This document shows, piece by piece, positions 30,777-39,607 of a stretch of 64,000 nt of DNA. Origin of the DNA: Gammaproteobacteria bacterium (GTDB taxonomy: Bacteria > Pseudomonadota > Gammaproteobacteria > SZUA-229); contig JAOULX010000001.1 of assembly GCA_029881795.1 (NCBI GenBank), positions 248,001 to 312,000 on the forward strand, read 5' to 3'. Within the stretch, counting starts at the first letter, position 1. Each line of letters begins with the position of its first letter. The position numbers and the translations under genes were made by a program. The notes beneath the pieces were generated by a model. It was not told the origin of the DNA. It was given only the letters and a program-made list of their open reading frames with translations, and did not search any database.

Positions 30777-31328
30777 ATGAATCCTGTTGAAGCGTGTAAA
30801 GCCTGGGTTGAACAGGTGGTGATTGGACAAAACTTTTGTCCCTTTGCCAAAAAGGAATTTGATCAGCAGCGGATTCACTTTCAGTTATGTGACGAAAGCG
30901 GTACTGATAAGGCATTGCAATGCCTTATCGATGAATGCCAGCGACTGGATCAGGATCCGAATATTGAAACCACGCTGATTATTTTCAGTAGCTTGTTGCA
31001 AGACTTCGATGAATTCTGGGGTTTTACCGAGATGGCAGAACAGCTTATGCAACTGCAGTCTTATGACGGTATATACCAGCTCGCGAGTTTTCATCCGGAA
31101 TATTGTTTTGATGGTGAAGATAAAAATGATGCCGCCAATTACACCAATCGCTCACCGTTGCCGATGTTACACCTGATCAGAGAACAATCGATGCAACAGG
31201 CATTGGCCAGTTACCCAGATCCGGCATCGATTCCAGATAATAATATTGTAAAAGCAAGGCAGCTGGGGACGGCGTATTTTTCAGCGCAACTGGCCGCCTG
31301 TAAAAAAGCCGGCAAGGAAAATGAATAA
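30777..31328 (+). CDS. DUF1415 family protein
   Basis: 183 residues from the ATG at 30777 (two GTG codons directly upstream are alternatives; no strong ribosome binding site decides). Family features: C-x-W-[VI]-x2-V[VI]-IGQNFCPFAK at the start, LLQDFDEFWGF near 80, FHPEYCF and NYTNRSPLPMLHLIRE in the second half. It is a conserved gammaproteobacterial and betaproteobacterial protein with no proven function. The conserved NFCPFA and His/Glu positions look like a small catalytic or binding site. Its stop overlaps the MOSC gene by one base. Confidence 0.85.
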   Translation: MNPVEACKAWVEQVVIGQNFCPFAKKEFDQQRIHFQLCDESGTDKALQCLIDECQRLDQDPNIETTLIIFSSLLQDFDEFWGFTEMAEQLMQLQSYDGIYQLASFHPEYCFDGEDKNDAANYTNRSPLPMLHLIREQSMQQALASYPDPASIPDNNIVKARQLGTAYFSAQLAACKKAGKENE

Positions 31329-32125
31329 TGAGCGGGCTTAGTGTCAGTGAGCTGTATATACACCCGGTTAAATCATTGGCATCGCTGCCTGTCGATTCGG
31401 CTATGGTGGATCAATTCGGGCTGACAAATGACCGGCGCTGGATGCTGGTGGATACCGATGGCGTGTTTATTACTCAGCGCTTTATTCCGTCGATGTGTCT
31501 GATAACAGCGCTGATCGAGCACAATCGCTTGCGGCTAACGGCCGCTAATATGCCGGCTATTTATATTGATGAAAAAGACCATGGCGCTGTCACCATGGTA
31601 ACAGTCTGGAATGACCGTTGTCAGGCACTGGACTGTGGTGATGCAGTGGCAGACTGGCTCAGCCGGTTTTTAAAAAAAGACTGCCGACTGGTGTATTTTC
31701 CGCAGCATGAAGTACGACAGGTCGATTTGGATTATGCCAAAGCGGGTGATAAAACCGGGTTTAGTGACGGCTTCCCGTTGTTGTTGATATCGCAGGCATC
31801 ACTTGATGATTTAAATAGTCGCTTAACACATGCAGTAGCAATGCCGCGTTTTCGTCCGAATATAGTCATCAGTGGCTGTGAGGCATTTGCAGAAGACCAG
31901 TGGCAAGCAATCCGCATCGGTGATCTCACATACCGGCTGGTAAAACCGTGCAGCCGCTGCAGTATTCCTGGAATAAATCCTTTGACAGCTCAGCGTGAGA
32001 CGGAGTTGCTACAAACCCTGCGAAGCTACCGGATGAAAGATAATAAAGTCTACTTTGGGCAGAATGTAATTGCTGATAATATAGGGCTGATAAAAAAAGG
32101 TATGGCAGTAGAGCTCATAGGATAG
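31328..32125 (+). CDS. MOSC domain protein
   Basis: 265 residues with the MOSC N-terminal beta barrel (VSELYIHPVKSLASLPVD at residues 5-22, DRRWMLVD near 35) and the C-terminal MOSC domain with the conserved Cys in KPCSRCSIPGINP. The family handles sulfur of the molybdenum cofactor or binds the cofactor for reductase reactions, as in mARC and YcbX. It lacks a ferredoxin domain, so it needs a partner for electrons. It is coupled to the DUF1415 gene by a TAATG overlap. The molybdate importer genes lie 5 kb away. Confidence 0.88.
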   Translation: MSGLSVSELYIHPVKSLASLPVDSAMVDQFGLTNDRRWMLVDTDGVFITQRFIPSMCLITALIEHNRLRLTAANMPAIYIDEKDHGAVTMVTVWNDRCQALDCGDAVADWLSRFLKKDCRLVYFPQHEVRQVDLDYAKAGDKTGFSDGFPLLLISQASLDDLNSRLTHAVAMPRFRPNIVISGCEAFAEDQWQAIRIGDLTYRLVKPCSRCSIPGINPLTAQRETELLQTLRSYRMKDNKVYFGQNVIADNIGLIKKGMAVELIG

Positions 32126-34307: not shown

Positions 34308-35171
34308 TCATTGACTTGCTGTTTTTTGCTGTTCTTGTGCGGCCTGTTGGCGCAGGCTGTTTGTGACCTGCTTGATAACGACGGACTCGCTGTTGTCTGC
34401 ATAAACCATGTAGACCGGGATATTAAACTGTGGGCTCTGCGGTAGCTGGAATAATCGGCCGCTTTCAAGCAAGGGCTCGGCCATTCGCAGTGGTACAAAA
34501 CAAGAGCCGCCATTACTTAATATAATCTGTACCCCGAGCCAGCCGATATTGACTGTCTGGGCTGGCCGTTCGAGCTCAGGGTAATGACTGCTGTGCTGAG
34601 CATGGAAAGCTGGTCCCCAGTCGACATAGATATAATCCTGATCGGGCCAGGCCTTGTCGGGGTCGGTTGTCAGTAATACCAGTGTTTCGTCAAACAACTG
34701 TTCAATGCGCAGGCCGGGGCTGTGCTGAGGCGTGTACATCAGCGCGACGTCCATTGTGCCCTCTATCATGCGGCGCATCAGGTCTTCTTCAAAGCCAATT
34801 TCACTGCGAATTGAAATATCCGGTGAGCTGCGCCGCATTTCACCGACCCAGCGCGGTAAAAACACCTCCCACAAAGCTATTCGAGCACCGATTGTAATAC
34901 TGGCCCGATAGCGACTGGGTAGGCCGACATCATGCCGAGCCTGATCCAGCGTCAGTAAGATTGATTGCGCGTGATGCACCAGCCGTTTACCGGCTGCAGT
35001 CAGCTTAGCGCCTGAGCGGTTACGGATAAACAGGCTGACACCGAGGTCGTTTTCAAGAGTCTGAATACGGCTGCTGACAGTGGACTGGGTGACATAAAGA
35101 CGAGAAGCGGCTTGCAGAAAGCTGCCGTTGGCCACCACCGCAAGAAAGGTTTTTATCTGATCGGTATCCAT
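34308..35171 (-). CDS. LysR family transcriptional regulator
   Basis: 287 residues with the N-terminal winged helix-turn-helix (DTDQIKTFLAVVANGSFLQAASRLYVTQSTVSSRIQTLE) and a periplasmic-binding-protein-like effector domain from about 90 to 285. The effector is unknown. It is divergent from the DsrC-like fusion gene, and an inverted repeat lies immediately before its start codon, the usual setting for a LysR protein that controls both itself and its neighbour. Confidence 0.93.
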   Translation of the reverse strand: MDTDQIKTFLAVVANGSFLQAASRLYVTQSTVSSRIQTLENDLGVSLFIRNRSGAKLTAAGKRLVHHAQSILLTLDQARHDVGLPSRYRASITIGARIALWEVFLPRWVGEMRRSSPDISIRSEIGFEEDLMRRMIEGTMDVALMYTPQHSPGLRIEQLFDETLVLLTTDPDKAWPDQDYIYVDWGPAFHAQHSSHYPELERPAQTVNIGWLGVQIILSNGGSCFVPLRMAEPLLESGRLFQLPQSPQFNIPVYMVYADNSESVVIKQVTNSLRQQAAQEQQKTASQ

Positions 35172-35175
35172 CTAT

Positions 35176-35200
35176 TTAATATCGGATTAATCGATATTAA
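35176..35200. promoter_or_regulatory. Inverted repeat, likely LysR operator
   Basis: Perfect 9-bp arms TTAATATCG and CGATATTAA with a seven-base spacer, five bases before the LysR start codon. The direct repeat ATTAATCG at 35186-35193 and 35209-35216 is next to it. The position favours autoregulation and control of the divergent gene. Confidence 0.6.
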
Positions 35201-35316
35201 TGTCAATTATTAATCGTTTGTCTTATATATAACTTCGCTTATATAGTACCGTCTATGCAGTTGAACGACGTTGTCTTGACGATAACAGAGCTTTGAATTT
35301 AGAAAAGGTGGTAACA

Positions 35317-35952
35317 ATGATCTGTATCAGCGTAAAAATGAAATTTGGTAAGGAAGTGCTTAAACGGGTGCCAGTTGAACTGATTCTGGATAATCAGTGC
35401 CGCGTTGGGCCACAAGCTACTGATCGTGCAGGCATGGTTTGTTTTGATCAGCCGGTCAGTAGTGGCAAAGTTATGGTCGCTGGGGTGGAGCGTTATCAGG
35501 GTCGGCTTGAAGGCGATATAGATATTGAGCTGTGGAGTCTTGCAGAAACCGGCTTTAGTTCTGATGGCGCCACCACAACAACACGTGGCAGCAACGCCTA
35601 CCCGAATATGACAACCCGTACGGTGGAGGTTGCTGGTCGAGAAATTATGACAGACAGCGAGGGCTATCTGGTAGACCCGGCTGACTGGTCCGAAGAGTTT
35701 GTTCGCCAGCAAGCTGAGCAGGAAAGTTTGCAGCTGACCGCAGAGCATTGGGAAATGATCCGTTTTCAGCGCAGCTGGTTTGCCGATAACGGGCGCCAGG
35801 CAACGGTACGCGACATGATAAAGTATTTTCGCAAACACTGGGATGCAGAGCGTGGCAGTAATCGCTACCTGCACAAAATTTTCCCCTATGGTGGTCCGCA
35901 AAAACAGGGTAATCGTCTGGCCGGTTTGTTGCGTACTAAAGGCGAGCACTGA
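35317..35952 (+). CDS. DsrC/TusE-like protein without cysteines, fused to an N-terminal domain
   Basis: 211 residues from the ATG at 35317; AAGGTGG lies upstream, and the longer start at 35293 lacks support. Residues 103-211 match the DsrC/TusE/RspA fold (GYLVDPADWSEEF, LTAEHWEMIRF, YLHKIFPYGGPQKQG). Both sulfur-carrying cysteines of DsrC are gone: the KQGC position is Asn199 and the C-terminal GC position is Glu210. Residues 1-80 are a beta-rich domain of transthyretin-like pattern with VPVELILDNQC, then a Thr/Ser linker. It cannot carry persulfide at these sites, so a regulatory role of RspA type is inferred. The divergent LysR gene is the likely partner. Confidence 0.85.
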   Translation: MICISVKMKFGKEVLKRVPVELILDNQCRVGPQATDRAGMVCFDQPVSSGKVMVAGVERYQGRLEGDIDIELWSLAETGFSSDGATTTTRGSNAYPNMTTRTVEVAGREIMTDSEGYLVDPADWSEEFVRQQAEQESLQLTAEHWEMIRFQRSWFADNGRQATVRDMIKYFRKHWDAERGSNRYLHKIFPYGGPQKQGNRLAGLLRTKGEH

Positions 35953-37057: not shown

Positions 37058-37840
37058 ATGGCAGTGTCCGCTAAAATATTGTGGCTGATCAGTATGATAT
37101 CGCTGTGTCCTTTGTTGTTGCCTGATGCTAAGGCGCAGAGCAATGAACTAAGGCTGGCGGTCGCCAGTAATTTCGCTGCCACTTTAAAAGAGTTGCGGGA
37201 AGATTTCAAATTAAAAACACGGCGTAGTTTTTCAATAAGTCAGGCTTCTACCGGCAAGCTATATGCACAGATCGTTCATGGCGCACCTTATGATATTTTT
37301 ATGGCAGCCGATTCGAAGCGACCTGAATTACTGGCCGAGCAGGGGCTGGCTTTTGAACCTGTGGTATATGGCCGCGGACAGCTGACTTTGGTCATAAAAA
37401 AAACACCCAGCGTGAATTGTGCTGATCCTGTCTTGTCGGTACTGAATAAAAAAAATTTTAATAAACTGGCGGTTGCCAGTGCCAAAACGGCTCCCTATGG
37501 TGTCGCTGCCGAAGAGTTTATCAGAGCCGCTGATAAATGGAATGAGCTGGAGCCGAGTCTGGTCAGGGGTGAAAGCGTGCTGCAGGCATTTCATTATCTC
37601 GAATCCGCTAATGCCGATGCCGGTTTGATCGCCAGTTCATTACTGACTGAGTCAGATGGGCAGTTGTCCGGGCGATATTGTCAGTGGCAGATTCCATTGC
37701 AATCTTACCGGTCGCTGGAGCAGAAAATGGTGATTTTAAAAAACACCAACAAGCTTGCACTGGCGAGACTGTTTAGTGAGTATTTAAAATCTGAAGGCGC
37801 AAAAGCAATTATAAAAAGTAATGGTTATCTTGTTGATTAA
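37058..37840 (+). CDS. modA: Molybdate-binding periplasmic protein
   Basis: 260 residues with a signal peptide (cleavage near AKA, residue 26). The ModA fold is shown by LRLAVASNFAATLKEL, the ligand segment SQASTGKLYAQIVHGAPYDIFMAAD, and the later TAPYG. It binds molybdate or tungstate in the periplasm. It starts three bases after yaiI and is the first of modABC. No ModE site is visible, and the operon appears to start upstream of yaiI. Confidence 0.93.
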   Translation: MAVSAKILWLISMISLCPLLLPDAKAQSNELRLAVASNFAATLKELREDFKLKTRRSFSISQASTGKLYAQIVHGAPYDIFMAADSKRPELLAEQGLAFEPVVYGRGQLTLVIKKTPSVNCADPVLSVLNKKNFNKLAVASAKTAPYGVAAEEFIRAADKWNELEPSLVRGESVLQAFHYLESANADAGLIASSLLTESDGQLSGRYCQWQIPLQSYRSLEQKMVILKNTNKLALARLFSEYLKSEGAKAIIKSNGYLVD

Positions 37841-37857
37841 GCGAAGAGGTGTCGCGA

Positions 37858-38526
37858 GTGTTATTGCCTGATTTGGGGCCGTTGCTACTAACTGTCAAGC
37901 TGGCCTTTATTTCAACCTCGGTGTTGATTGTAATCGGTACGCCAGTAGCCTGGTGGCTGGCAACAACACGCTGTCGCATCAAACCATTCGCAGAGGCGAT
38001 AGTGGCATTACCAATTGTGCTGCCACCGACGGTGATGGGCTTTTATTTATTAATCTTATTCAGTCCGCAGGGCGCACTAGGCAGTTTCTGGTACGAGCTT
38101 AGTGGTCAAGCACTGACCTTTAATTTTTTTGGCCTGGTAGTGGCGTCGGTACTATACAGTTTGCCTTTTGTTGTTCAGCCTTTGCAGAGTGCATTTGAAT
38201 CGGTTGGAAAGGATTTGATGGAGGCAGCTTATACGCTGGGTGCAAAACCGCTGGATGCTTTTTTTAGTGTGGCAGTGCCGTTAGCTAAAAGAGGTTATCT
38301 GACGGCGATAGTGTTGGGCTTCTCTCATACCTTGGGTGAGTTTGGAGTGGTGTTAATGATCGGCGGTAATATACCTGGTGAAACACGACTGATATCGATA
38401 GCTATTTATGATCATGTTGAAAGTCTTGAATACGCTCAGGCACATACACTGTCTCTAATTTTGTTGGCGTTTGCTTTTGTCTCAATGCTGCTGATGTATC
38501 TGATTAACCAGCGGAGCAAAGCATAA
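37858..38526 (+). CDS. modB: Molybdate ABC transporter permease
   Basis: About 222 residues with five helices and the EAA loop (EAAYTLGAKPLDAFFSVAVPLAKRGYLTA, near 127-155). GTG start: 37858 lies eight bases after GAAGAGG and is preferred; 37849 would add three residues but would overlap that site. The last three codons are followed by a single base and then modC. It forms the membrane channel for molybdate. Confidence 0.93.
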   Translation: MLLPDLGPLLLTVKLAFISTSVLIVIGTPVAWWLATTRCRIKPFAEAIVALPIVLPPTVMGFYLLILFSPQGALGSFWYELSGQALTFNFFGLVVASVLYSLPFVVQPLQSAFESVGKDLMEAAYTLGAKPLDAFFSVAVPLAKRGYLTAIVLGFSHTLGEFGVVLMIGGNIPGETRLISIAIYDHVESLEYAQAHTLSLILLAFAFVSMLLMYLINQRSKA

Positions 38527-38527
38527 A

Positions 38528-39607
38528 ATGACGGCGGCTAATTATTGTTCTGTGCAACTTATTAAAGATGGCTTTGAATTAAACGCTGAGTTTGAAATTC
38601 CGCAGAAAGGCGTGCTGGGTATTTTTGGGCACTCAGGCTCTGGCAAGACAACATTATTACGTTGTCTTGCAGGGCTTGAAGATAAGGCGAGTGGACGAAT
38701 TATATTTAATGATTGCGAATGGCTGAATGATAAAAAAAGTCTGTCATCTCAACAAAGAAATATTGCTTACGTTTTTCAAGATAGCCGTTTGTTTCCACAC
38801 CTGACGGTTTTAAAAAATTTGCAGTATGGCGTCAAGCGCTCTGCTAGTGAGCTGCAATATAACTGGGATTCTTTATTGCAGCTTTTGAATATAGAAAACT
38901 TGCTGGAACGAAAACCCGAGACATTGTCCGGCGGAGAAAAACAACGGGTGGCTATCGCACGATCATTGCTGAAAAATCCGCAGTTGCTGTTGATGGATGA
39001 GCCAATGGCATCGCTGGATGCGGCGCATAAAAATGAAATCATCCCTTATTTAGAGACGCTGCATGAAACATTAAATATTCCACTTGTTTATGTTAGTCAT
39101 AGTCTGCAGGAAGTGTCACGTTTTTGCGATAGGGTGCTGGTGCTGGAATCTGGCAAAGTGATTTATAGTGATACTGTTTCAAAAGCTTTGAGTTCGGCAG
39201 ATTCACCATTGCTGAAGACGCAGAATGCGGTGGCGGTTTTTGATGCGGTGGTGTCTGAGCTGGATGCTGAGTTTTGTCTGTCTTCTCTGATAACAGATAA
39301 CGGGACTGTGTTGCAGGTAAAAGGTCTGCATGAAGCTGGAAGAAAACTTCGTTTGCGAATTAATGCCGCAGATGTCAGTCTCAGTAAGTCACGAGTTGTC
39401 GATAGCAGTATTTTAAATATTCTTTTGGCCAAGGTTGTGGCTGTTGTTGATGAAACCGACAGTGAAGTGCTGTTGCAGTTGTCGGTTAATGAGGATATTT
39501 TTCTTTCAAGAATTTCAAAAAAGTCGTTTAGTCTTTTAAATCTAACAATAGATTCTGATATATTTATTCAGATTAAGGGTGTGGTTCTGCAGTCGCTGCT
39601 GGATTAA
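38528..39607 (+). CDS. modC: Molybdate ABC transporter ATPase
   Basis: 359 residues. Walker A GHSGSGKTT near residue 33, signature LSGGEKQRVAIARSLL near 135, Walker B LLLMDEPMASLD near 157, and a C-terminal mop/TOBE domain from about 290 that binds molybdate. It drives ModB. It ends in a four-base overlap with the stop codon of the convergent HD-GYP gene, and no terminator is seen between them. Confidence 0.94.
   Translation: MTAANYCSVQLIKDGFELNAEFEIPQKGVLGIFGHSGSGKTTLLRCLAGLEDKASGRIIFNDCEWLNDKKSLSSQQRNIAYVFQDSRLFPHLTVLKNLQYGVKRSASELQYNWDSLLQLLNIENLLERKPETLSGGEKQRVAIARSLLKNPQLLLMDEPMASLDAAHKNEIIPYLETLHETLNIPLVYVSHSLQEVSRFCDRVLVLESGKVIYSDTVSKALSSADSPLLKTQNAVAVFDAVVSELDAEFCLSSLITDNGTVLQVKGLHEAGRKLRLRINAADVSLSKSRVVDSSILNILLAKVVAVVDETDSEVLLQLSVNEDIFLSRISKKSFSLLNLTIDSDIFIQIKGVVLQSLLD

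Follow-up and report, generated by a model that had tools for sequence, protein, structure and literature searches.

The proteins with which the product of the locus considered here can best be compared are DsrC, TusE and RspA. DsrC docks its flexible C-terminal arm, which bears two cysteines, into DsrAB, and TusE, which belongs to the 2-thiouridine sulfur relay, requires a cysteine in the penultimate position. Proteins of the DsrC superfamily that lack these cysteines were reportedly named RspA, as sulfur-related, by Venceslau et al. in 2014, and proposed to be regulatory. The DsrC family is routinely annotated as a sulfur relay and used as a marker of the sulfur cycle, and to our knowledge no DsrC architecture with an added transthyretin-like domain is known.

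The locus lies in a stretch of 64,000 nucleotides of gammaproteobacterial DNA (contig JAOULX010000001.1), which is referred to below as the window, and encodes a two-domain member of the DsrC family that is devoid of both arm cysteines and belongs to a clade marked by a KGEH tail. That this redox-silent protein is tied to the metabolism of nitrate and nitrite, and not to sulfur transfer, is given about an even chance. The features of the locus are the following:

35317..35952, + strand: coding sequence, 211 aa, N-terminal beta-sandwich plus Cys-less DsrC domain (open reading frame, ribosome-binding site, orthologue alignment)
35317..35556, + strand: N-terminal domain, residues 1-80, modelled as a seven-stranded transthyretin/CnaB-like sandwich (AF2 model, structural matches with Z of about 8-10)
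35557..35610, + strand: flexible linker, residues 81-98, pLDDT down to 48 (AF2 model)
35611..35949, + strand: DsrC-fold domain, residues 99-211 (PF04358 E=1.5e-29; Z 16.2 to 1yx3)
35890..35949, + strand: C-terminal arm GGPQKQGNRLAGLLRTKGEH, residues 192-211, with Asn199 and Glu210 at both DsrC cysteine positions (alignments, tail variant counts)
34308..35171, - strand: divergent LysR-type regulator, 287 aa (HTH_1 and LysR_substrate; LysR 48-78% identical at or near orthologues)
35176..35200, no strand: palindrome TTAATATCG-N7-CGATATTAA with an ATC-N9-GAT core, probable LysR operator (conservation, simulation, promoter scan)
35212..35247, + strand: second conserved block, AATCGTTTGTCTTATAT ... 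CTTATATA, including the promoter-like site of the DsrC-like gene (conserved in nine loci; consensus promoter scan)
35303..35311, + strand: Shine-Dalgarno-like AAAAGGTGG (sequence)

The gene extends from the ATG at 35317 to the stop at 35952. The initial annotation had placed its beginning at 35176, but the frame contains two stops ahead of the coding part, which rules out a start there. A Shine-Dalgarno-like AAAAGGTGG precedes the ATG, and the two-domain orthologues align from Met1 through to His211.

Residues 104-206 match the Pfam DsrC family (PF04358) with 103 bits against a cut-off of 24.9, and the protein also exceeds the threshold of TIGR03342 (87.4 versus 53.5). The closest solved structure by sequence is that of DsrC from A. 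vinosum (1yx3), to which residues 99-211 of the AF2 model are matched with a Z of 16.2 and an rmsd of 2.1 over 112 residues at 38% identity, so that the DsrC/TusE fold initially claimed for the C-terminal part is borne out by both the profile and the model. The TusE model PRK11508 is matched with an E of 3.5e-23, yet below its cut-off (81.8 versus 191 bits). Alignments likewise uphold the earlier observation that both cysteine positions are replaced: all 58 aligned two-domain proteins have Asn199 and Glu210, the two arm cysteines of DsrC are absent from the window protein and from all aligned orthologues, and the penultimate position, at which TusE requires its cysteine, is held by Glu210. The protein further departs from DsrC in its C-terminal His, in its extra N-terminal domain and in the position of its gene outside any dsr operon. 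The loss of both cysteines excludes sulfur carriage of the DsrC/TusE type. An alternative thiol in the N-terminal domain was considered and ruled out, since Cys3, Cys28 and Cys42 are unconserved, being missing from many orthologues, and no conserved thiol chemistry is thus left. The arm that stands in place of the cysteines is almost invariant, with GGPQKQGNRL, Gly203, Leu204 and KGE unchanged throughout the alignment of 58, which points to binding and not to decay.

The AF2 model of the whole chain, built on the 58 sequences (mean pLDDT 88, pTM 0.81), places N-terminal strands at residues 2-8, 19-24, 29-34, 40-43, 48-54, 57-64 and 66-72, followed by a disordered linker, after which the DsrC fold sets in at about residue 100; the C-terminus is loose. 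The beta-rich, transthyretin-like N-terminal domain that had been proposed from the sequence thus reappears in the model as a sandwich with matches to CnaB, transthyretin and carboxypeptidase D at a Z of about 8-9 over 70-79 residues. The structural matches comprise SleC (Z 10.0), a Bacteroides transglutaminase-family fragment (9.4), CnaB2 (8.8), carboxypeptidase D (8.5) and transthyretin (about 8), and span Z values of 7.6-10 over 69-81 residues at 7-21% identity, where a Z near 8 can reflect a common arrangement; sharing of the predicted fold at such values says little about the function of the domain. When folded alone without an alignment, the domain gave a poor model (pLDDT 63). Unlike the transthyretin and CnaB domains, that of the window protein is fused to DsrC and has no match to a sequence family, Pfam returning bMG3 only, at an E of 0.095. 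No signal peptide was seen by inspection, and Foldseek against the PDB showed no other DsrC fusion among the matches listed. That the domain is a common mobile module was ruled out by a profile search over 369 genomes of the class, in which strong matches fell in the fused gene only. The same profile gave four weak matches (E 7e-6 to 2e-4), to two proteins that look exported and to two standalone proteins of 72 aa (L212:6627-6845, E 7e-6, and L215:7047-7265, E 2e-4), which may be free-standing relatives of the domain. In genome G341 the gene is apparently split over two contigs, its N-terminal half lying at L206 and its C-terminal half at L145.

When one genome from each GTDB species was scanned, 361 loci were returned with relatives bearing GGPQKQGN and G-x-x-x-x-KGEH, and the almost invariant tail GGPQKQGN...KGEH defines the Cys-less branch. 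The full two-domain architecture is present in about 70 of the best 80 of these loci. Its carriers are mostly sulfur bacteria and nearly all gammaproteobacteria, many of them purple sulfur bacteria; they include Thiocystis, Thiocapsa, Thiorhodococcus, Allochromatium, Thiohalocapsa, Thiogranum, Thiohalobacter and Thiotrichaceae, together with gammaproteobacterial MAGs and one MAG labelled Desulfobulbaceae. The same KGEH tail is also seen in shorter proteins of about 114-125 aa. In a class-wide pattern search the motif was found in 21 of 369 genomes, one copy in each, and in the window genome its only exact copy is the gene under study; some Chromatiaceae have two two-domain copies. Within the bacterial family of the window, single- and two-domain forms occur in 9 and 15 of 54 genomes, respectively, with zero overlap, and the P of about 0.04 is too weak for mutual exclusion to be relied upon.

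Maximum-likelihood analysis separates the KGEH members, as a single group, from the canonical DsrC sequences (support 100/98); nested in this group, the two-domain proteins constitute a single clade (96/88). That clade is sister to the nas-operon form found in the window's own genus (G001-G003) and in Chromatiales MAGs (99/84). When the tree was rebuilt with two rows added, the two-domain group received 99/85 and the same sister relation recurred more weakly (94/76); the alignment offers few columns (about 120).

The surroundings of the single-domain members are the main evidence for a link to nitrate. Up to 8 kb on either side was read for the 21 class-wide motif loci, where the contig allowed, and 13 of the 14 genes that are single-domain lie in nitrate-reduction operons, usually adjoining the nitrate-reduction genes on the same strand. 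Seven follow narI of narGHJI immediately or nearly so, six are found in nirB-nirD-molybdopterin-DmsBC or NasA clusters (one of these, L134, is near a contig edge and shows only the DmsBC-like part), and one, L146, lies elsewhere. With curated models, narI, nirB and nirD score above cut-off, and the molybdopterin subunits resemble NasC/NasA below cut-off. Among 17 canonical DsrC genes used as controls, none has NarG, NarI, NarJ, NirB, NirD or NasA within 6 kb; apparent NarH/DmsBC matches at these loci were rejected as DsrO-like ferredoxins of about 250 aa with 35-40% identity. Eight loci of the window's family (L152-L156, L158, L159 and L164) again show nas-type contexts, and a sub-branch (L157, L160-L163) has a different neighbourhood. 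The presence or absence of nirB was also set against that of KGEH genes, and proved uninformative because nirB is almost universal in the family. A phylum-wide sample added two members, of which L220 lies behind narI and L219 within a dsr operon. The latter, a KGEH-tailed Cys-less DsrC-like gene (L219:7915-8268) between dsrN-like and dsrR-like genes, is the only member of the clade in a clear sulfur context, and is early-branching on a long branch; its position makes a sulfur origin of the clade plausible. The neighbours of two other early-branching members, L108 and L109, resemble ubiU/ubiV when judged by eye.

Neighbour markers within 6 kb were scored for 73 two-domain loci. A LysR gene is found in 33 and is immediately divergent in 23, which counters the possibility, raised in the initial annotation, that the LysR gene is not conserved beside its partner. 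The other neighbours comprise NnrS and HPP (14 loci each), CBS (8), Rrf2 (6) and MoaB/MoeA (5), and nitrate or nitrite reductase, NarK or PP2C-type genes occur at 4 of the 73. At least one non-LysR marker (N/Mo/HPP/CBS/NnrS/Rrf2) is present at 35 loci, with none within 6 kb at over half. For HPP, CBS, NnrS and Rrf2 the sole comparison set is the 17 DsrC control loci, none of which has any of them. Among curated models, that of NsrR comes nearest to the Rrf2 neighbour, which stays below its cut-off. The HPP-family protein AtNITR2;1 has been reported as a candidate nitrite transporter (PMC4137279), and regulons responsive to NO/nitrite include NnrS as a conserved member (PMC1274295); comparable roles in the present bacteria would be an extrapolation from these cases. 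At L101, L102 and L106/L145 the two-domain gene is flanked by a NarK-like transporter and/or a fusion of a PP2C phosphatase with a Ser/Thr kinase, a neighbourhood that suggests phospho-signalling in nitrate uptake.

At the window locus itself no nitrate gene adjoins the two-domain gene, and no dsr or other sulfur genes were seen near it; among the relatives read, dsr genes occur only at L219. The window genome does have a nirB-nirD-molybdopterin-DmsBC cluster (L211), which, unlike those of its congeners, is not followed by a KGEH gene. Genes that read by sequence as modABC (37058-39607) begin about 1.1 kb downstream of the two-domain gene, and a MOSC-domain protein is encoded at 31328-32125; neither linkage was seen in relatives.

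The window LysR (HTH_1 E 9e-21, LysR_substrate E 2.5e-19) resembles the HdfR equivalog below cut-off (152.3 bits against 240), and the LysR proteins near orthologues are 48-78% identical to it. The perfect inverted repeat that had been noted at its start does exist, with perfect 9-bp arms. When sequences with the composition of the intergenic region were simulated by a first-order Markov model, 2.3% had arms of at least 9 bp, and by itself the palindrome is only moderately unusual; its significance is settled by its conservation in related LysR loci. Nine loci keep TTAATATCG-N7-CGATA(T/C)TAA-TGTC...ATCGTTTGTC...CTTATATA with minor changes, the divergent gene being DsrC-like in five and HPP in four, where HPP is followed by CBS (where called) and then by the DsrC-like gene. 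A promoter scan, based on consensus matching only, locates the LysR -10 within the palindrome; for the DsrC-like gene it gives a promoter-like site in the second block, with the -35 at 35218 and the -10 at 35242-35247. A wider regulon was sought and rejected: no second intergenic copy with up to two mismatches was found in the window's own genome, and the four other sites at this threshold all fall within coding regions, so the LysR looks dedicated to the window locus.

The reading to which about half of our confidence goes is that a branch of the DsrC family left sulfur chemistry and took on a non-catalytic role, now standard, as partner or regulator of the respiratory Nar and assimilatory Nas systems that reduce nitrate and nitrite, with the window protein as a LysR-controlled version equipped with a transthyretin-like module. 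The two-domain form would have arisen once, from an ancestor of the nas-operon type, by gain of the N-terminal transthyretin/CnaB-like domain, and would then have come under its own LysR regulator, which would recognize the ATC-N9-GAT palindrome, repress its own gene and control the gene divergent from it or, in relatives, the divergent HPP-CBS-DsrC-like set. Membership in operons with nitrate reductases suggests reuse of the DsrC docking surface; the protein would act through docking and not through chemistry, with the DsrC fold and the KGEH arm binding a nitrate- or nitrite-reduction partner, and the N-terminal sandwich may add an oligomerization or ligand surface.

This has to be weighed against three other readings. 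The sulfur-state sensor with its LysR regulator, as originally suggested, would suit the DsrC fold, the abundance of sulfur bacteria among the carriers and the L219 member in its dsr operon; as sulfur genes are missing at the window locus and at nearly all relatives, as the single-domain genes of the class-wide sample sit in nar/nas contexts in 13 of 14 cases, and as conserved thiol chemistry is lacking, it is not the best reading and is held to be improbable. A DNA-binding transcriptional regulator after the RspA idea, in which the helical, basic C-terminal half would bind nitrate or sulfur promoters and the sandwich would sense a ligand, must be taken more seriously, though it is doubtful. 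It would be independent of cysteines, the regulatory role reportedly proposed for RspA agrees with it, and residues 156-211 are net basic (12 K/R versus 5 D/E). However, profile searches gave zero DNA-binding matches in the protein, the locus already has a dedicated LysR, and the genes occupy terminal or internal positions in enzyme operons, as is usual for subunits and accessory proteins. Nitrate reductases need molybdenum, and the molybdenum cofactor is the common denominator of Nar, Nas and the moaB/moeA/moaD neighbours. A NarJ-like factor for maturation or assembly of molybdoenzymes, which would hold apo-nitrate reductase or aid cofactor insertion, would account for this and for modABC in the window, but NarJ is already present in the same nar operons as the single-domain genes, the HPP, CBS, NnrS and NsrR-like neighbours are not molybdenum genes, and the sub-branch with the different neighbourhood (L157, L160-L163) is near neither group, so that this role appears unlikely.

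If the nitrate/nitrite partner reading is right, a protein shape regarded as one of sulfur metabolism has seemingly been reused for that of nitrogen. The window protein shares with RspA the lack of conserved cysteines and differs from it, RspA having been named as sulfur-related, in the nitrate link of its clade and in its added domain. Cys-less DsrC-like proteins were reportedly described before, as RspA; the literature searched, to which the 2014 DsrC review did not belong, contained neither the clade of the nitrate operons nor the fusion with a transthyretin-like domain nor the pair of LysR and operator. A nitrate-linked Cys-less branch implies that annotation as a sulfur relay can be wrong, TIGR03342 and PF04358 both matching the window protein, and gives Cys-less DsrC-like proteins a concrete, testable role. 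The LysR-operator pair is open to genetics in culturable purple sulfur bacteria (Thiocystis, Thiocapsa, Thiorhodococcus).

Further DsrC-like arrangements were observed in the course of the analysis. At L085, L090 and L097 a second, shorter DsrC-like ORF (110-133 aa) lies beside the two-domain gene or its LysR, that of L090 reading as another DsrC-family sequence. In the same bacterial family as the window, two loci (L165:8014-8760 and L166:4397-5227) encode tandem DsrC-DsrC fusions of about 250-276 aa, with two PF04358 stretches in the case of L165, in which the first unit is without the terminal cysteine and the second retains it.
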